Positions 7,414 to 56,465 of a DNA stretch of 64,000 nucleotides are shown one piece after another. The position numbers and the translations under genes are program-made. The notes under the pieces are model-generated. The model saw nothing but the letters and a program-made list of their open reading frames with translations, did no database searches and was not told where the DNA came from. How positions within the stretch are numbered: position 1 is the first letter of the stretch; every line of letters begins with the position of its first letter. Origin of the DNA: Sediminitomix flava (lineage in GTDB: Bacteria; Bacteroidota; Bacteroidia; Cytophagales; Flammeovirgaceae); contig NZ_QGDO01000003.1 in NCBI RefSeq assembly GCF_003149185.1, positions 640,379 through 704,378 on the forward strand. The letters are read 5' to 3'.

Positions 7414-8037
7414 TTAGTTGAAAGCAAATTCATCTGTATCTAATTCTTCCAAAATATCTGCAAGTTCATCAAAATCATTGATTCCTACCTTGATTTCTGC
7501 TCCTCCCTTCAATGAAATACCTTCAGGTTGAATAGTATCAATCATTTCTGTAACATTCTCATGATTGATGCCGAAGCCCAAGAATAGCTTAAATTCTTTG
7601 GCTACTTTACTCAAAAGATCAATTCTTTTGGCATCAAGTTGAGCCTTAGATTCGATAATAATAAAATCAACTTTATCTTTTACAGCAGTTAACACTGAGG
7701 TTACATCTTCTAATTCGGCTTCAATGGCCAAATCATATTTAAATACTAATGGAGTAGCTAAGTTCTGTAAATCTTCGAGTAAGTCTAGTTTATCGGTCTG
7801 GATGAAATCGAATTTTTCATAGGCTTCAAAGTCAATATCCAATGACTGGTTGATTTCTGCGACAAACTTAATTCCTGCCAACCAAGAAGAGATTTCTTTA
7901 AATCTTTCAGGGCTTACAAAGTCAGGATGTTCTTTGTCAAGAGGAAAACCAATCATTTCAACTCCCATTCCTGCACAATATCTACCATTGTGTAAGTTAG
8001 TAACTTCGCTTACTTTTACTCTGGTTTTTAAAGCCAT
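7414..8037 (-). CDS. TrpF-like (phosphoribosylanthranilate isomerase-fold) protein lacking catalytic residues
   Basis: 207 residues, no signal peptide, presumably a cytoplasmic TIM barrel. It can be aligned by eye to TrpF along its length: VKVSEVTN for VKICGxTN, MGVEMIGFPL for the GADxxGFVF strand, FVSPERFKEIS for the SPxxA segment, LGFGINHENV for the GGLxxENV phosphate loop and GAEIKVGINDFDEL for the SGVE-P-G-KD end. The family's general-acid Cys is Ser here (KVSE), the general-base Asp region reads FIIIESK with Glu, and the Arg before the ISP segment is Asp. Tryptophan-pathway activity is therefore doubtful. No other trp gene is nearby, and the gene stands alone, divergent from thioredoxin. 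It may be a Bacteroidota-specific paralog of unknown role. Confidence 0.7.
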   Translation of the reverse strand: MALKTRVKVSEVTNLHNGRYCAGMGVEMIGFPLDKEHPDFVSPERFKEISSWLAGIKFVAEINQSLDIDFEAYEKFDFIQTDKLDLLEDLQNLATPLVFKYDLAIEAELEDVTSVLTAVKDKVDFIIIESKAQLDAKRIDLLSKVAKEFKLFLGFGINHENVTEMIDTIQPEGISLKGGAEIKVGINDFDELADILEELDTDEFAFN

Positions 8038-47257: not shown

Positions 47258-47300
47258 TAAAAAGAAAACGCTTTATCAGAAAGAACCGATAAAGCGTTTT
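47258..47300 (-). terminator. Terminator of the MksE/MksB-like operon
   Basis: A 13-bp perfect stem (47265-47277 with 47288-47300, AAAACGCTTTATC and complement) followed on the minus strand by CTTTTT. Confidence 0.88.
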
Positions 47301-47322: not shown

Positions 47323-50300
47323 TTAAGCTTCCCCAACAAGTTTTATTACATTCACTTTATTGGTTTTTGTATTTCGGTCAAGTTTATAAACGTGATGATA
47401 AATTAGAGGGTCGTTTTCATTTGGCGAACCAAAAATTAATCTTACGTTTTTATGATTTGTAAAATCAATAAGTTCTCTCAGATAACGATCAGAGAGTTTA
47501 CCCACTTCATCAATCATACAATGCACTCTGTAGTCATCGTTATTCTTGAAAACATTTTCCTTGAAGACATTCAGAAGTGTAATGTAGATCATAGATTTTA
47601 CAAGAACATCTGTTCCTTCAGATCCTACGTTCGATAGTTTTTCAACCCAACCAGTATCATTGTTATTTTCAGCTACTCTAAACTGTAATTCAAAGAAATC
47701 ATCGATTTTGATGTATTTTGAATTTGTTTGTTGAATTTCAGCATTCAAATCATTCAATAACTGAATTGATTTTTTATTGGTAACACTATCGGCTTTTTCC
47801 TTGAAGAAACTAGCTTGATCGCCAAAATTAAACTTACTATCCAACTCTTTGGCTTTCATAAGTAGCCCTGTCAATCCTGAAGTTTTTTCCTTGAATTGGA
47901 GTTTAACTGACTTAACAACACCGACAAAGTTGGTCTGCTCAAAATGATCATTGAGTTGTTTCACCGTCTCATGAATAGATTTATTCACCTTAGAAATATC
48001 ACCCACTTCTCTAGTGATGTTACTAATAAGTCCGCTGTGTTGTTTCTCAACTTGTTCCTGAACATTCTCAATCAGATCGTTCTCAATAAATCCCCTTAGC
48101 GTTTTGTCTACGAAGAAGAAAATAGCCCTTTCGTCATCTTGACCCGTGAGAATAGGGAATTTCATTTCATTCGCTTTTTGGAATTTACTGGTATAGCTTA
48201 GAACTTCTTTGGTGAATTTAGCTTGTATTTCACCTTTTCTAGCAAATTCGCCTCTGACTGTGGACAATAACTCACTTACCGTTTCTCCATGTCCTATAAC
48301 CGTTTCATGGGCTTCTTCAATGAATTTGATCAAACTGAAATAAGGACTCATCTCTTCAGATTTGAAACGGTCAAATTCGTTGAGCTGTGTTTCTAGATTT
48401 CGAGATTCATTTTGTAAGGTCTGAACTTCAGCTTTAAACTGTGCTCGCTGAGCATTCAGTTGTGTCTTTTCATCTTCAAATCGGTCAAGAATAGCTTTCA
48501 ATTGTGATTCTAATTCTTGAGTCTCGACTTTAAAAGCCTCTTCCTTGTCAAAATATTGTTCCTTATTAACTTTATATTCAGATACGATTCCTTTTGTACC
48601 ATCAATAAAGTTAAGCTTCTGAAGAATCGAGTTGATGGCTTCTTCTTCTTTTTGGAGCTGTTTTGTATCGACTCCTTTTTCACTTAAAGCTTCTTTCTTA
48701 CGTAGCTCTAAACTCTGTAATCTGCTAATAATGTCAGCTTCATACTTCTCTTTCTGAGAATCAAGAGTGAGGATAGCTGAATTTTGCTGCTGTAAGATTT
48801 CAGTCGAAAGTAGATTGTATTGATCTTGTGAGGAAATTCGATCATTCTCAAATTTTTGCTTCAGCTCATTCTTTTTTTCTTTTTGCTCAGAAAGCTCACG
48901 CTGTGAAACTGAAATTTTTGAATTGATTTCCTCTAAAGCACTTTCTTTTAAGCTTGAAGACTCCTTTTCAAGTTGTTCTAAATCAAGAATAAATTCTTTC
49001 TTTTTTCTTTCAGCTCTCGTCTTTTCATAAGGTAAATTTTCCTCATAGTCCTTGACTAGCTTCTTGTATTTTTGCTGATATTCTTGCTGAAGAAGGTCAT
49101 GCTCTGATTGGAAATCAGATTGAAGTTTTAGTTTCTCTTCATGAAGTGCTATTAATTCTTTCTCTGCTTCTTCTAATAGATTAGAGTAATCCGTAAACTG
49201 AATTTCAGAACTATTCAGCGAAGACAGATCAAGTTTTAACCCGAAGAATCCCTCTTCTTTATTATTGAAAGTAGGGGAAAGGTCTTTTTGTAAAAGAATT
49301 TCTTCCTTAATGAGTTTGCCAATATTTTGTTTCCAATCTTCAACATTCTCATTCAAAAACTCCCAAAGAGAGCCTTCATACTTCTTGATTTTTGCTTCAA
49401 GTGATTCTTTAGCGTTTTTCTTTTGAGAAATCTGTAAGTCAATTTTCTCTGAGTTAGATTCAAATTGAGCTTTAAGTGCCTTTAACTGAGATTCATTAAG
49501 AGCTTTTAGACCTTCAGCCTCTTTTCTGAAAAGAAGAATATTTTGTTCAATATCCTTGAGCTGAGCATCAAGTTTCTGTATTTCTTTTGAGATCAGATCA
49601 AAACGTTCGCTACTGAAATCCTTATGAGTGATTTGTGCTTTTTCCTCATTTAAGGCTTGAAGCTTTTCTCTTTTTTCTTCAATATGTTGTTCAACAGAAT
49701 CCCTGTCTTTTTCATATTCTGACTGAAGTTCTTGAATCTTCTCTTGCTGTTTTTCTTTTAACTCTTCAAGACGATCAATAAATGAAGATTTAAGATTGAT
49801 TTTCTCATTCTCAATCTCTTGTTGGTAAGCACTTCTTTTCTGACGTAAACTTGATTCTTCTTCAGAAAAACGTTGTTCTACTTCCTTAACTTCAGCCATC
49901 AAAGTTTCTTTAATACTTTGATGATGGCTAAGTTGATCTTTTAAAAGTGTTTCATTTTGATGTTCCTCTAAAATACTTTCAATAGAAAAAACACCTTCAC
50001 TACGAATAATCTCCGCGTATTTTTTACGCAACGATTTAATGGTTTTAAGGTGGTTTTTAGGAACACCAATTTTTTGGTTGATCAATGTTTTTTGTTGGTC
50101 AAAGTAGTCTTGCTTTTCATGAAGACTATCTTCAATTCCATTTAAAGCTTGTTGCGCTTTTTCAAGGTCTGCTTTAAAAACAATGGCTTTAGAACTGGCA
50201 GATTTTACTTCTTGTCCAAGCTGAATAGCAACGTTTTCAAGTTTGGATTTTGTTGAAATGAATTCGTCATGTTGAGAAATAAGCTCTTCCGCTTTAGGTT

Positions 50301-51015
50301 TATATTTCTCGAAGTTGAGTAAATCTCTTCGTGTATTCTCAAATTTTGAGATTTGACGACTGATGACCTCAAGCTCAATTGGACGAACATTTTCTTCTGC
50401 AATAGCTTCAATAATTGCTCTTTTTATATAGTCAGAGTTGAGACTAGAACTTCTGAAAATATTAGCAATTGCTTTTGGAATGGTCGTTAGCTTCTGACGC
50501 TTGATTGAAGTCTTACCATGGAATAATCCATACTTTTGATATTCTCTTTTTTCAGTTGCACCATAGATGATATTTCGTACATCGGCATATCTTCTGATCT
50601 CATCGGTAAAACTGATTTCTCTAGCTTCCAGATCAGCAAAGATGTTTTCTAAACTCTTGGCTTTACGGTCTTTTATGAAGAAATCTTTTTCATATGGCGC
50701 ATCGATAAATCGAAACTGAAGTCTTCCTCCTTTTTTATAGAGGAACAGACATACATTATTTGTCTCAGTATGAATTTCATAGATCATGTAAGACCCAAAT
50801 TCCTCGAAATAATACTCAGAAAAAGATTGCTGATTTTCTTTGATTCCTAACTCTCTCTTTTCAGAAGTAGGGTGATAGAAAAAAAGAATAGCTCTCAGAA
50901 GGGTTGTTTTTCCAAAACCGTTAGAACCTACAAAGTGAATATTACCTCCAAGACTCACCTCGGAATAGGGTAAAGATGAGCTATTTATGAATACAATTTT
51001 ATTTAGATACCTCAT
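47323..51015 (-). CDS. MksB/MukB-like SMC-type ATPase
   Basis: 1230 residues from ATG 51015 (MRYLNKIVFINSSS); an earlier in-frame ATG at 51039 lies inside the upstream gene. N-terminal Walker A is GSNGFGKTT (residues 30-38), followed by LLRAILFFYHP. Residues ~250-1000 are almost continuous coiled coil. The C-terminal head has a signature-like SNVGSEGTDVLVK (~1126-1138) and a Walker B-like VHCMIDEVGKL (~1165-1173), then LIFGSPNEND as D-loop/switch region. This is an SMC-type folding and head arrangement. The partner gene upstream is MksE-like and overlaps by 17 nt. The role is likely chromosome organisation or exclusion of foreign DNA, as in MukB, MksB and Wadjet JetC. No kleisin (MksF/JetA) or nuclease (JetD) gene is beside it. 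Confidence 0.75.
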   Translation of the reverse strand: MRYLNKIVFINSSSLPYSEVSLGGNIHFVGSNGFGKTTLLRAILFFYHPTSEKRELGIKENQQSFSEYYFEEFGSYMIYEIHTETNNVCLFLYKKGGRLQFRFIDAPYEKDFFIKDRKAKSLENIFADLEAREISFTDEIRRYADVRNIIYGATEKREYQKYGLFHGKTSIKRQKLTTIPKAIANIFRSSSLNSDYIKRAIIEAIAEENVRPIELEVISRQISKFENTRRDLLNFEKYKPKAEELISQHDEFISTKSKLENVAIQLGQEVKSASSKAIVFKADLEKAQQALNGIEDSLHEKQDYFDQQKTLINQKIGVPKNHLKTIKSLRKKYAEIIRSEGVFSIESILEEHQNETLLKDQLSHHQSIKETLMAEVKEVEQRFSEEESSLRQKRSAYQQEIENEKINLKSSFIDRLEELKEKQQEKIQELQSEYEKDRDSVEQHIEEKREKLQALNEEKAQITHKDFSSERFDLISKEIQKLDAQLKDIEQNILLFRKEAEGLKALNESQLKALKAQFESNSEKIDLQISQKKNAKESLEAKIKKYEGSLWEFLNENVEDWKQNIGKLIKEEILLQKDLSPTFNNKEEGFFGLKLDLSSLNSSEIQFTDYSNLLEEAEKELIALHEEKLKLQSDFQSEHDLLQQEYQQKYKKLVKDYEENLPYEKTRAERKKKEFILDLEQLEKESSSLKESALEEINSKISVSQRELSEQKEKKNELKQKFENDRISSQDQYNLLSTEILQQQNSAILTLDSQKEKYEADIISRLQSLELRKKEALSEKGVDTKQLQKEEEAINSILQKLNFIDGTKGIVSEYKVNKEQYFDKEEAFKVETQELESQLKAILDRFEDEKTQLNAQRAQFKAEVQTLQNESRNLETQLNEFDRFKSEEMSPYFSLIKFIEEAHETVIGHGETVSELLSTVRGEFARKGEIQAKFTKEVLSYTSKFQKANEMKFPILTGQDDERAIFFFVDKTLRGFIENDLIENVQEQVEKQHSGLISNITREVGDISKVNKSIHETVKQLNDHFEQTNFVGVVKSVKLQFKEKTSGLTGLLMKAKELDSKFNFGDQASFFKEKADSVTNKKSIQLLNDLNAEIQQTNSKYIKIDDFFELQFRVAENNNDTGWVEKLSNVGSEGTDVLVKSMIYITLLNVFKENVFKNNDDYRVHCMIDEVGKLSDRYLRELIDFTNHKNVRLIFGSPNENDPLIYHHVYKLDRNTKTNKVNVIKLVGEA

Positions 51016-51562
51016 CGTCGTCTGTTTGGTCAATATCAATCAATAATACAATTTCCTCTAAAAAGTGATATGCAGAAAGTACTTTATAAGTCTCTTTTTC
51101 TGTATCGATCACTTCAAAAAATCCTAGTCTTTTCATCTCCTCAGCCAAGTCTCTCACCTTATCAATGATTGACGGATCTTTTTCTCCAACAATCCTCTTG
51201 AGTTGCTCAAAAAGGTTTGCATCAGTTTTACAGCGGTGCACAATATCAGTAATCTGAAATTGACTTCCTTCAGAGAAGGTAGCATCATATGATGAGAAGA
51301 ATGCAAGTCTATCAATATATTTATAGAACTTTTCTACCTTTTCTCGGAGTGTTTGTCGCTGTTCTTTTCGAGAGAAGTAAAAAAAATTATTTCCTCTCTC
51401 TAGTGTAAAATTTAAGGGTAAAAAATAATCGTAAAAATCTTCGAAGTTGTCATCAATCTCATTGTATAGATTTCTGATCTCACTTCGACTACTATTAGCG
51501 CTTATGAAATTACCTCTACTCAGAATCTCAAAAGCCCTTGTGATATATGTATTATGTCTCAT
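50999..51562 (-). CDS. MksE/MukE-like condensin accessory subunit
   Basis: 187 residues, no signal peptide. A winged-helix-type small subunit by pattern: RAFEILSRGNFISANS, then DYFLPLNFTLERGNNFFYFSRKEQ, KFYKYIDRLAFFSSYDATFSEG, and an acidic tail. This resembles the MksE family as I remember it (FxYFSR and YKVLSAYHFLEEIVLLI segments). Such proteins bridge the kleisin and the SMC ATPase. It is the first gene of a two-gene operon, its last 17 nt overlapping the SMC-like gene, which implies coupled translation and complex formation. Upstream there is only a promoter region and the divergent riboswitch operon. Confidence 0.7.
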   Translation of the reverse strand: MRHNTYITRAFEILSRGNFISANSSRSEIRNLYNEIDDNFEDFYDYFLPLNFTLERGNNFFYFSRKEQRQTLREKVEKFYKYIDRLAFFSSYDATFSEGSQFQITDIVHRCKTDANLFEQLKRIVGEKDPSIIDKVRDLAEEMKRLGFFEVIDTEKETYKVLSAYHFLEEIVLLIDIDQTDDDEVSK

Positions 51563-51803
51563 TTCAATAATCGTATTCTCGCAAAAAGAACTGCAAAAAT
51601 AGTAAAAAATGAGGATTATTTAGATTAAAAAAAGTGTCTGATAAGCTTAAAAAAAGTTTATTTCAGAAATGTATCTTTTCAATTCTCAAAACTGAAAGTG
51701 AGATCTATTCATGTTTTTGTAAAAAAGACAATGAAGTCTCTTGTATGTCATAATCAATAATAAATATTCATATATATCACTTTCTTTAGGTGATTTAATC
51801 ATC

Positions 51804-51833
51804 TTGTTTCACTAACAAACTTTTATATCTTTG
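51804..51833 (+). promoter_or_regulatory. Promoter of the B12 uptake operon
   Basis: -33 TTG (51804-51806), 19-bp spacer, -7 TATCTTTG (51826-51833). The predicted start of transcription is at about 51840, right at the riboswitch. Confidence 0.75.
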
Positions 51834-51835
51834 CC

Positions 51836-51998
51836 CAAGTTTGGTGCTCGAGAGAGCTAAGAGGGAATTAGGTGAAAGACCTAAACTGTACCCGCAGCTG
51901 TAAGCTCATTTTTAATTTTGTTGTTAAACCATTGTCTACAATGTTAGATGAGAAGGTGACAAAATGTAGAGTAAGTCAGAAAACCTGCCAATCTTCGA
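51836..51998 (+). ncRNA. Cobalamin (B12) riboswitch
   Basis: The ordered core motifs of the cobalamin aptamer are visible: TTGGTGCTC at the 5' end, GAGGGAATTAGGTGAAAGACC, the conserved ACTGTACCCGCAGCTGTAAG-type B12 box (51886-51905), a variable peripheral arm, and the 3' GTAAGTCAGAAAACCTGCC (51971-51989). Immediately downstream a small hairpin (CTTTTA 52006-52011 with TAAAAG 52022-52027) may be part of the expression platform. High adenosylcobalamin is expected to switch the operon off. Confidence 0.93.
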
Positions 51999-52149
51999 AA
52001 CAGTGCTTTTACTTTCGGGAATAAAAGTTTTAGTGCAGCTGAATATCAATAGTTTATTTTATTGATTGAAATACTGTACTTTTTTAGCCTTCCCTTTCTA
52101 TTTGCCCCTGTTTCTGTTGTTTAATGTTATTCTAAATAATTAGCTAGAA

Positions 52150-53526
52150 ATGAACAGAAATCTTTTTAATCGTAAAGGAATTATTGCAGGTCTTATGGCC
52201 CTAAGTATTTTTACTTCATGCGAGTCTGATGATGAAACTCTGAGAAAACCAGATTCTATTGAAATTACAACTCCAAATGGTTCTTCTTCAATATTTCCAA
52301 GTGAAACATTAGAATTTGTCGGAGAGGTTAGTGACGCTGATTTTGTGAACTGGTATCTTGGAGATGCACACATGAGTGACTCTTCTTCTTTTACTTATAC
52401 TTTTAACGAAGTAGGTGACTTTAGAGCTTTATTCTCTGCTGGTTATACAGGAGCAGATTCTCTAACGGCTTACAGAGATATTACAGTAAATCCTTTTAAT
52501 GGTTTTATGGTATTGTCTGAAGGAAGTTTCGGTGCTCCAGGTTCTGAAAGTTTCACGTTTGTAAATACAGATAGAGAATTAAAAATAAATGGTGTTTTTA
52601 ATGCCCAAAATGACGGAGCTGAAGTAGGTAGTACTTTACAATCTGCTGTAGTTTCTGACAACTATATATATGCCGTAGCTCAAAATGGACCTAATTTAGT
52701 TAGTATCATTAATAAAGAAGATTTGACTTTAGAGCAAGGTCTAACAAGCTCAGAGTTGAATTTTGGCGAATATATTTATCCTACAAATATTACTTTGGTA
52801 GATGATGCTAAAGCTTATGTTAGATCATTTTATTATGATGATTTTTATGCAACTCACAGTGCAGTTTTCGCACTAGATTTAACAACGAATACTCTATCAA
52901 AAGTTGATGGTGTACACGCTAATTTAGGCCAAATGCAAATAGTTGGGGATGAATTGTTCACAATTGAAGGAGATGTATTATACATTACAAATGTAACTTC
53001 AAATACACTAACAGAGACTGTAGCATTAGAATCTGTAGCGACAACTATGGTAAAAGATAGCCAAGATAACTTGGTTGTAGTGTTGACAGGAGAGAATTCT
53101 AAAGTCGTAAAAATTAATGCTGCATCTAGAAACATTACTGAAACCATTGATGCTCCTGAAGGTGTATCTTTTGCTTCAGGCTCTAAAAACGCATACACTA
53201 CAATAAATCCTTCTACTGATGCAGTTTATTTCATTCCTTATACTGCAGGAGATTGGGGTGGAACAATCACTAACAAAATGTATGAAGTGAAAGATGGTGC
53301 TTTAAAAGAAGCTTTTGATATATCTAACTGGTCAGATGATGAGGCTGGTTTCCCATATGGTGAAATAGCATTTGATGAAGCTACTGGAAATTTGATGATC
53401 ACAACAATTAAAAGCTATGGAGAATACGATTCAAATGCTTTGTTCTTTGTCGACCCATCAACAGGTTCTGTAGTTAAAAAATATGCTGGTGTAGGTGAGT
53501 TCCCTGCTATGGTTCTTCCTTTATAA
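52150..53526 (+). CDS. Surface lipoprotein with PKD-like and DUF5074/YncE-type beta-propeller (BtuG-like)
   Basis: 458 residues. Lipoprotein signal with lipobox FTSC (Cys24 region, SIFTSCESDDETL); the acidic residues after Cys fit a Bacteroidota surface-export signal. A PKD-like domain covers ~35-115 (VNWYLGDAHMSDSSSFTYTFNEVGDFRA), then a YncE/DUF5074-type seven-bladed propeller (~120-458; GFMVLSEGSFGAPGSESFTFVNTD, YAVAQNGPNLVSIINKEDL, LFFVDPSTGSVVKKYAGVGEFP). First gene after the riboswitch. Known BtuG proteins of Bacteroides are surface beta-propeller lipoproteins that bind B12 tightly and sit on BtuB. Assignment as a BtuG-like B12 binder is inference from fold type and locus. Confidence 0.8.
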   Translation: MNRNLFNRKGIIAGLMALSIFTSCESDDETLRKPDSIEITTPNGSSSIFPSETLEFVGEVSDADFVNWYLGDAHMSDSSSFTYTFNEVGDFRALFSAGYTGADSLTAYRDITVNPFNGFMVLSEGSFGAPGSESFTFVNTDRELKINGVFNAQNDGAEVGSTLQSAVVSDNYIYAVAQNGPNLVSIINKEDLTLEQGLTSSELNFGEYIYPTNITLVDDAKAYVRSFYYDDFYATHSAVFALDLTTNTLSKVDGVHANLGQMQIVGDELFTIEGDVLYITNVTSNTLTETVALESVATTMVKDSQDNLVVVLTGENSKVVKINAASRNITETIDAPEGVSFASGSKNAYTTINPSTDAVYFIPYTAGDWGGTITNKMYEVKDGALKEAFDISNWSDDEAGFPYGEIAFDEATGNLMITTIKSYGEYDSNALFFVDPSTGSVVKKYAGVGEFPAMVLPL

Positions 53527-54485: not shown

Positions 54486-56465
54486 ATGATTTTGAAGGGT
54501 ATACGATATCGTTATTTACTTTTTTTTGTGTCAATTTTTACTTTAGGTTTCAATACAAATCTACTTTATGCACAAGTCTTAGATTCTGTATTGTACCTGG
54601 AAGAAGTGAATATCGTTGATGTATCAATCCCTGAACGAATTAGTTTTAAGACTACCTATATTGAGCCTGAAATTATTGAAAGTAATCTAACTGCTAGTTT
54701 AGGTGAAATGCTGAGTCTGAATACTCCAATATTCATTAAAAGTTATGGGGTTGGTGGAACACAAACACCTTCATTTAGAGGAACAGGAGCTAGTCATACA
54801 CAAGTGTATTGGAATGGTGTGAGTTTAAATTCACCAATGCTAGGACAGGTAGATTTGTCACTTTTCCCTGTTGCATTTTCAGATGAAGTAGTCGTCAATT
54901 ATGGTGCTTCTAGCTTGATGCATGGAACAGGTGGATTGGGAGGTGCTATACAAATGAACTCTAGAGTTGTCATGGATGGTGTTCCTCATGTTCTCGTTTC
55001 GCATACAGCTAATACATTACAGAATCATATTTCAAATGCAAGTGTAACTCTTGGCTCTGAGAAACTTCAGAGTACAACTAAAGTGTATTATAAGGATGCT
55101 AAAAACTTATTTGATTTCGTAAATCCTTTAGAGCCAGGTTCTCCAACATGGACAAATGAAAACTCTGCACATCTTCAGTATGGTATTCTTCAGGAGTTTT
55201 CGTTTAGGCTTAGAGAAAATGAAACATTCAGTTTTTATACATGGTATCAGACGAGTGAAAGGGAGTTACCTCCGAGTATGCATACCGAACAAAGTTTTGC
55301 ATGGCAAAGTGATGAATCTTTAAGGTTTTTAGGTTCGTGGGATAGAGTGGATGAAAAAAAGTCTTTGAGTTTGTCAACTTACTATGGTAAAGAAAATTTT
55401 TATTATCAGAAAGATATAAGTAACGATAACTTTCCTAAAATTTCTGCTTCAGATACAGACAGCTATTCATTCCAATTACATGGAAAAAGTAGTTTTCATT
55501 TGAGCGATAAACTTGATTTAAGGTTTGGTTTTGACTATCAATACGATAATCTGAATAGTACAGTCAGAGAAGGAGGCTCCCAAACCAAAAGTAATCAATC
55601 AGATCAAAACATATTCGATCTATATTCGGGAGTAGAATGGCTCCCAAGTTCCAACCTGAGTATGAGTTTCCTAGTTCGTCAAGAGTTGATTGATGACCAA
55701 ATACAACCTTTTTTACCATCCTTAGGAATTGATTGGAAAGCGTATTCAAATTATACTCAAGATTTAAATTTGAGAGTAAACCTTTCACGAAACTTCCATG
55801 CCCCAACACTAAATGACAAATATCTTTACCCTGTTGGAAATGAAGATATGAAGCCAGAAGAAGGTTGGATTGGAGAAATTGGAGGTACATATCACATCCA
55901 AAAATCAAATGCACTTTCTTTTAAAATTGAGACCACTGCATTTGCATCACTTATTAATAATTGGATTGTTTGGACTCCTTCTGTCAGTAATCTTTGGGCT
56001 CCTAAAAATCTAAAAGAAGTATTTTCTCGAGGGATCGAGCAAATAGTCTCTGCAAGCTATGATAATGGGAGAGACTTCTCCGTAGATTTATATACTTCAT
56101 TTTCGTATGTGAGGTCAGAAAATCAAGAGGCAGAAGATGAACTCGATAAGTCAGTAGGAAATCAACTTACATATACTCCAATTACAAGTTTTCAAGGATA
56201 TGCCCGTATGAAGTACAAGGATTATTACTTGACCATTGAAGAACAAGCATACGGAAAACGATTCACTCAAACCGATGCGAGTGAATGGTTACCTGCGTAT
56301 TATCTCACTAATGTTGCTGTCGGTAAAAAAATATATCTCAATTCGCATAGAATTGATGTACAAGCACGGATTGAAAATATTTTTAATTACCACTATCAAT
56401 CAATCGCACGAAAGCCAATGCCTGGCAGAGTTTATCAGTTATCATTAACCTACCGTTTAAATTAA
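54486..56465 (+). CDS. btuB: BtuB-like TonB-dependent cobalamin receptor
   Basis: 659 residues, signal peptide ending LLYAQ. No CRD; the N-terminal plug begins near residue 35 and shows IKSYGVGGTQTPSFRGTGASHTQVYWNGVSLNSPMLGQVDLS and YGASSLMHGTGGLGGAIQMNS, typical of the BtuB/vitamin-B12 receptor plug. The barrel ends in YQLSLTYRLN. The size is close to E. coli BtuB (about 610). The riboswitch upstream and the ABC permease and ATPase downstream support cobalamin or another corrinoid as the substrate. It is flanked by propeller lipoproteins on both sides, as expected for BtuB-BtuG pairs. It starts 4 bp before the next gene's ATG follows its stop. Confidence 0.85.
   Translation: MILKGIRYRYLLFFVSIFTLGFNTNLLYAQVLDSVLYLEEVNIVDVSIPERISFKTTYIEPEIIESNLTASLGEMLSLNTPIFIKSYGVGGTQTPSFRGTGASHTQVYWNGVSLNSPMLGQVDLSLFPVAFSDEVVVNYGASSLMHGTGGLGGAIQMNSRVVMDGVPHVLVSHTANTLQNHISNASVTLGSEKLQSTTKVYYKDAKNLFDFVNPLEPGSPTWTNENSAHLQYGILQEFSFRLRENETFSFYTWYQTSERELPPSMHTEQSFAWQSDESLRFLGSWDRVDEKKSLSLSTYYGKENFYYQKDISNDNFPKISASDTDSYSFQLHGKSSFHLSDKLDLRFGFDYQYDNLNSTVREGGSQTKSNQSDQNIFDLYSGVEWLPSSNLSMSFLVRQELIDDQIQPFLPSLGIDWKAYSNYTQDLNLRVNLSRNFHAPTLNDKYLYPVGNEDMKPEEGWIGEIGGTYHIQKSNALSFKIETTAFASLINNWIVWTPSVSNLWAPKNLKEVFSRGIEQIVSASYDNGRDFSVDLYTSFSYVRSENQEAEDELDKSVGNQLTYTPITSFQGYARMKYKDYYLTIEEQAYGKRFTQTDASEWLPAYYLTNVAVGKKIYLNSHRIDVQARIENIFNYHYQSIARKPMPGRVYQLSLTYRLN

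Follow-up and report, generated by a model that had tools for sequence, protein, structure and literature searches.

Sediminitomix flava very probably encodes a complete, nuclease-free MksBEF condensin whose kleisin gene lies 154 kb from mksE and mksB

Can an SMC complex of the Muk/Mks type do without a kleisin? This question is raised by two overlapping genes, mksE and mksB, in a stretch of 64,000 nucleotides (nt) of the Sediminitomix flava genome (positions 640379-704378 of contig C3, which is 998 kb long), referred to below as the window, to which coordinates refer unless a contig or locus is given. No gene for a kleisin or a nuclease adjoins the pair. A preliminary description of this DNA had therefore presented it as a system without kleisin and had offered three explanations, namely a kleisin gene at another site, replacement of the kleisin by the small subunit or a reduced SMC system with a job of its own. 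The analysis reported here makes it very probable that both genes belong to a complete nuclease-free MksBEF condensin, a system reportedly named by Petrushenko et al. in 2011, and that its mksF acts in trans from a site 154 kb away, which renders it a three-part machine with scattered genes.

The assignment of the window genes as mksE and mksB, already proposed in the preliminary description, is borne out by Pfam. The mksE product matches the MksE family PF21980 with an E-value of 8.6e-38 (130.7 bits at a cut-off of 27), while residues 18-1208 of the mksB product, nearly its full length, match DUF3584 (PF12128, E-value 3.4e-63). The mechanically called open reading frame (ORF) of mksB spans 47323-51039 and starts with a TTG; its homologues begin at the ATG at 51015 (“MRYLNK”), which leads to a protein of 1230 amino acids (aa). 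In a four-sequence alignment the MksB residues G30-T38, G1131-D1136 and D1169-E1170, which we take to be the Walker A, signature and Walker B motifs, are invariant or conserved. The 17-nt overlap of the two genes described earlier is confirmed by the coordinates and makes their translational coupling probable. The AlphaFold2 model of MksE (mean predicted local distance difference test score, pLDDT, of 87.4) finds its best structural matches in MukE-MukF and MukBEF entries (Z-scores of 10.3 to 8.3) and in JetABC entries (9.1 to 7.4), ahead of unrelated rows, which begin at a Z-score of 6.7. Judged from entry and length, the matched chains should be MukE and JetB. Both in size and in predicted fold MksE resembles other MksE/MukE proteins, and it carries no added domain. 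The strong Pfam match and the MukE/JetB fold matches dispose of the possibility, raised in the preliminary description, that the 187-residue protein is unrelated to MukE/MksE folds. Among the chains of the PDB, phmmer found no meaningful match to MksE (the best one, with an E-value of 1.5e-4 over 29 residues, being a photosystem chain) and none to MksB, whose profile retrieved merely one unrelated chain (E-value 8.2e-4). PADLOC models gave weak matches only to the window pair, and NCBIfam left MksE unmatched, its matches for MksB being weak and of a general ATPase kind.

The kleisin gene was located via the relatives of S. flava. MksE turns up at 17 places, spread over 12 of the 18 genomes that represent the family, S. 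flava included. Of the 16 places outside S. flava, 15 have a gene of 403-418 aa directly upstream of mksE, and only genome G015 deviates. A profile built from eight of these proteins that precede mksE in relatives (F profile) yields, at E-values up to 10, a single match in the S. flava genome, at C3:845997-847187 on the forward strand (E-value 6.9e-129), and the matched frame of 418 aa is open and stop-free. Since the genome-wide F profile finds an intact mksF, the claim of a system without kleisin does not hold; a kleisin-free SMC pair is rejected, and of the three explanations offered earlier that of a kleisin encoded elsewhere proves correct. As mksE-mksB and mksF reside inside one 998-kb contig, an assembly artefact is rejected as the cause of the split. 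The kleisin had escaped notice since its gene is remote from the pair and belongs to a family without a Pfam match. This gene is situated 57 nt 3' of a gene with two lumazine-binding stretches, which is taken as the riboflavin synthase gene ribE, with a PorP/SprF gene on the other side. Between ribE and mksF there is a short inverted repeat, rich in GC and trailed by a T-run (L020:7946-7985), which does not appear in the terminator scan and is perhaps an attenuator.

Among 148 genomes drawn from the order, strong matches for E, F and near full-length B (E-values of 7e-42, 2e-38 and 2e-137 or better, respectively) coincide in one group of 18 genomes, where each subunit is represented by 22 copies; S. 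flava possesses one copy of each. Strict co-occurrence of the pair with a kleisin gene at another site of the genome was precisely what the preliminary description had named as speaking against its proposal. With the kleisin gene existing and co-occurring with the pair, both the replacement of the kleisin by the small subunit and the reduced SMC system have to be abandoned. Left out of these counts were an E-profile match in G042 (63 positions, E-value 5.9e-4), F-profile matches in G024, G084 and G134 (53-58 positions, E-values of 1.6e-5 to 1.8e-4) and B-profile matches in G147, G090 and G066; in none of these genomes are the two remaining subunits strongly matched. Across 89 systems the distances of F correlate with those of E (r = 0.91) and B (r = 0.96).

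That F is a kleisin is suggested by its predicted structure and by the position of its gene. The model of F begins with an N-terminal domain resembling a winged helix, continues with a long bundle of helices and a linker predicted at low confidence, and ends in a helix-strand domain at the C-terminus, an arrangement which we take to be the domain order of MukF. The top six Foldseek matches of this model in the PDB are chains of MukF-containing entries (best E-value 2.2e-4). In the list of a second aligner, VIA-align, six of the seven MukF-type rows extend into the N-terminal domain of F (3rpu_B covering residues 2-256), while most others cover only about residues 80-237. In E. coli K-12, mukF precedes mukE in the order mukF-mukE-mukB, and the corresponding position of F ahead of mksE is independent support for its identity as a kleisin. 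We assign a MukF-like predicted fold to F with moderate confidence.

Several observations weigh against this identity, or against a functional unit of the three proteins. Pfam assigns no family to F at E-values up to 0.1, the F profile matches no PDB chain, and a comparison of this profile with the single E. coli MukF sequence by hhalign reveals no connection, although the same single-sequence comparison fails for MukE, too, and is thus uninformative; for the MksB profile it gives a weak match to E. coli MukB. The model of F is of moderate confidence (mean pLDDT of 75.0, predicted template modelling score of 0.41), only one of its Foldseek matches falls below an E-value of 0.001, and its alignment to MukF chains gives low TM-scores of 0.21-0.28 by query length (0.21-0.25 for the top six). 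The VIA-align list consists largely of unrelated helical bundles, with those of syntaxin and STAT reaching Z-scores of 12-14 compared to 12.0-12.7 for MukF-type chains. As to co-occurrence, the B-profile match in G147, outside the 18 genomes, has an E-value of 2.4e-43; it covers coiled-coil positions 435-807 only, within a 392-aa frame at a contig edge. The distance correlations can stem from shared species history alone. Finally, the F/E and F/B ratios of the window system rank 83 and 80 of 89, i.e. near the top, as do those of Flammeovirga.

Taken together, the genome contains an SMC protein of the MukB/MksB kind with its motif residues, a KITE protein of the MukE/MksE kind and a kleisin, which together make up an MksBEF system; the single F-E-B operon, which is usual in such systems and not required for their assembly, is absent with mksF 154 kb from mksE. 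We infer that the three products assemble, extrude DNA loops and fulfil a chromosomal job. In such a complex the kleisin MksF, supplied in trans from the gene behind ribE, would bridge MksB dimers at their ATPase heads and MksE would bind to MksF, while ATP cycling of MksB would bring about loop extrusion or entrapment of DNA on the chromosome. MksBEF would act beside an Smc-ScpA condensin, which the S. flava genome appears to encode as well: it harbours a 1189-aa SMC frame with both head halves, and ScpA is present in all 18 MksBEF genomes, S. flava included.

The list of ScpA (PF02616) matches contains no genome of f11 or f21 and only one of f13 (G148), and the control Bacteroides ihuae is absent from it. 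Examples without a match are G027, G045, G060 and G073 (f11), G029, G046 and G061 (f13) as well as G038 and G053 (f21). Matches to SMC_N, a family covering other ATPases too, do occur in B. ihuae, and the genomes lacking ScpA may possess an Smc with an unrecognised kleisin. Comparably, PMC10197239 reports that no known condensin was detected in two Bacteroidetes.

How exceptional is the separation of mksF from its partners? F is located immediately 5' of E in 79 of the 80 named loci compared, which are the best 80 of 132 retrieved with a single conserved motif; the exception is L051 of an uncultured Microscilla. Within the order, F and E are separated in five of the 18 genomes (five of 22 sets), namely in S. 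flava, G015, G062, G093 and one of the two sets of G113; in G015, G062 and the scattered G113 set E is apart from B as well. The neighbours of F differ among the scattered lineages, except for the Microscilla-like G062 and G113, which share theirs. Among the scattered genes of the other genomes, the shortest distances to a contig edge are those of B in G062 (about 0.3 kb) and in G093 (about 1.1 kb), and in both cases the edge is on the side away from where E would precede B. In a concatenated FastTree phylogeny of 93 systems (two of 95 were left out as a subunit was missing) the window system groups with Flammeovirga and G017, both of which have an intact F-E-B order, with a support of 1.0. 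Its sister varies by tree, being Flammeovirga in the concatenated (0.60) and the F tree (0.97) and G017 in the B tree (0.75). The scattered layouts require four changes on the concatenated tree; this Fitch count compares to a mean of 4.9 in shuffles, 5.6% of which are at or below 4. F seems to have moved away from an ancestral F-E-B order. In the Microscilla-like loci L037 (mksE at 7422-7988) and L038 (7136-7705), mksF and mksB are not nearby, and mksE overlaps by 4 nt with the end of an upstream gene which, by appearance, is a putative aspartokinase.

The genome search for MksF/JetA and JetD that the preliminary description had proposed yielded one mksF and no match for two nuclease profiles. 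JetD_C finds nothing in the S. flava genome at E-values up to 1. Because JetD_C proved a poor test, missing the DUF7281-type genes in all six genomes that carry them, a DUF7281-type nuclease profile was built from four relatives; in S. flava it shows nothing beyond a match with an E-value of 0.3 over 26 residues. As no nuclease of the JetD/MksG type was found, plasmid cleavage is unlikely. In Bacteroidota, DUF7281 (PF23947) itself appears to represent the JetD-like nuclease in a Wadjet-type system which is only weakly recognised by PADLOC models: its proteins show weak JetD matches (Pfam was run on three members, PADLOC on one), with examples at L023:4782-5633, L040:10565-11416, L045:2032-2886 and L046:1461-2315. 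The literature searched names DUF7281 nowhere. A gene of this type follows B in 59 of the 70 named loci where this place is readable (seven further loci are unreadable after B, and another three lack an adjacent B); it is missing from 11 loci, namely five from Flammeovirga, four labelled Parabacteroides, L098 and L121. Among the 148 genomes of the order, it occurs in six, always beside an intact F-E-B set. JetD_C matches away from MksBEF sets are present in G093 and G139, which may hold separate Wadjet systems, and in an unrelated 91-aa frame or fragment of G006.

Scattering concerns none of the six sets with DUF7281 compared to five of the 16 sets without it, which is a weak contrast at the level of sets. 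On the tree, all four scatter events fall on nuclease-free branches, which account for 0.34 of its length and thus give 0.34^4 = 0.014 as a rough figure; a subtree was counted as nuclease-free only if the nuclease is missing from every one of its present tips, with the status of named loci read locally, labels assigned by ourselves and unreadable loci counted with the rest. Statistical support for a link between scattering and nuclease loss is modest. It is conceivable, though we consider it rather doubtful, that scattering is a recurrent mark of Wadjet-type machines which lost their nuclease and became housekeeping condensins: joint transfer and expression as a single cassette would no longer be needed, the kleisin could come under separate control, possibly by read-through from ribE, and its supply could set the number of active MksEB units.

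Other explanations of the locus have to be weighed against a complete MksBEF condensin. Given that the transcription unit of mksE-mksB contains no kleisin gene and F lies behind the unrelated ribE, one might assume a true two-subunit SMC complex in which MksE alone bridges MksB while the distant F has another job. This is highly improbable: F is intact and shares genomes and copy number with E and B, MksE is typical in size and predicted fold without any added domain, and the rate of change of F is close to that in the intact operons of Flammeovirga (F/E ratio of 1.40 compared to 1.37-1.41, F/B ratio of 0.88 compared to 0.93). The split gene order, shared in part by the other genomes with F apart from E, might also indicate a relic in decay, with the MksBEF operon broken up and being lost. 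We regard this as extremely improbable since all three frames are open, the ATPase motif residues are conserved and the terminal branches of the window system are similar to those of G017 on all three trees.

A Wadjet-type defence against plasmids or phages, with the nuclease encoded in trans or belonging to an unrecognised family, would fit the wider family, most readable loci of which carry the JetD-like DUF7281 after B. Yet both nuclease profiles fail to detect a nuclease in the S. flava genome, and the window system belongs to a well supported clade in none of whose sets DUF7281 stands beside B, so that we judge this improbable.

The condensin proposed here resembles MksBEF of, e.g., Pseudomonas aeruginosa in combining an SMC-type ATPase, an MksE-family KITE protein and a kleisin, with no nuclease found and SMC-ScpAB alongside; a passage of PMC7485682 states that MksBEF and SMC share chromosome organisation and segregation. 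It differs in the distance of 154 kb between mksF and mksEB and in an F family without Pfam match. With Wadjet (JetABCD/MksBEFG) it has the homologous core in common, the MksE model aligning to JetB-type chains, and many relatives carry F-E-B plus DUF7281 with weak matches to JetD models. In contrast to Wadjet, no nuclease was found in the S. flava genome and the order mksFEBG, given as conserved in a passage of PMC10123090, is broken. As regards MukBEF of E. coli, the predicted E and F folds match chains from entries of MukE-MukF and MukBEF and most relatives exhibit the K-12 order mukF-mukE-mukB, whereas the SMC protein is shorter (1230 residues compared to 1486 in E. coli) and single-sequence profile comparisons give no usable match for E and F and a weak one for B. 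According to a passage of PMC4255302, bacteria with mukBEF carry these genes in a single operon. Among the matches listed in our literature search, no title or abstract opening deals with a scattering of mks genes in Bacteroidota. These results remove a supposed exception to the kleisin rule for Muk/Mks-type SMC complexes, and detection of Mks or Wadjet systems by gene neighbourhood can miss or mislabel scattered sets. With the family itself already known, what is modestly interesting is the scattered layout together with a possible connection to loss of the nuclease, and sets with and without nuclease provide natural cases for the conversion between defence machine and chromosome condensin.

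Features of the mksE-mksB locus and of the distant mksF (window coordinates except for mksF)
Feature	Position	Strand	Description	Basis
mksF	G000:C3:845997-847199	+	kleisin gene, 400 aa from likely ATG; outside window	F profile match
mksE	50999-51562	-	KITE (tandem winged-helix) subunit, 187 aa	Pfam MksE PF21980
mksB	47323-51015	-	SMC-type ATPase, 1230 aa from ATG at 51015	DUF3584 PF12128
mksE stop/mksB start overlap	50999-51015	-	17 nt; mksE stop 50999-51001, mksB ATG ends at 51015	
Terminator hairpin 3' of mksB	47265-47300	-	15 pairs, loop 6, T-rich tail	
Upstream gap	51563-52149	.	587 bp; place of mksF in most relatives; kleisin gene absent	

The terminator attributed to the pair in the preliminary description is found again as a hairpin with a long stem (47300-47265, reverse strand), the sole terminator-like site in the terminator scan; the count of one in this region is not above that in shuffles (mean 2.7). 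The 8-mer TATTTTTG at 51601-51594 (reverse strand), 32 nt ahead of the mksE start, may be a promoter element, given its resemblance to what we take to be the Bacteroidota -7 element. Sigma-70-type sites show no excess (16 compared to 16.2 in shuffles). As described earlier, the 587 bp upstream of mksE (51563-52149) hold no mksF, nor is there a neighbouring nuclease. This gap contains no ORF of at least 60 aa, and a mechanical ORF of 77 aa, antisense to the next upstream gene, touches its last 10 bases. Beyond the gap a divergent gene follows. A cobalamin riboswitch (RF00174, 96.9 bits) is located at 51825-52006 on the forward strand, ahead of a 458-aa gene at 52150, after which a 659-aa gene at 54486 encodes, by appearance, a putative outer-membrane receptor.

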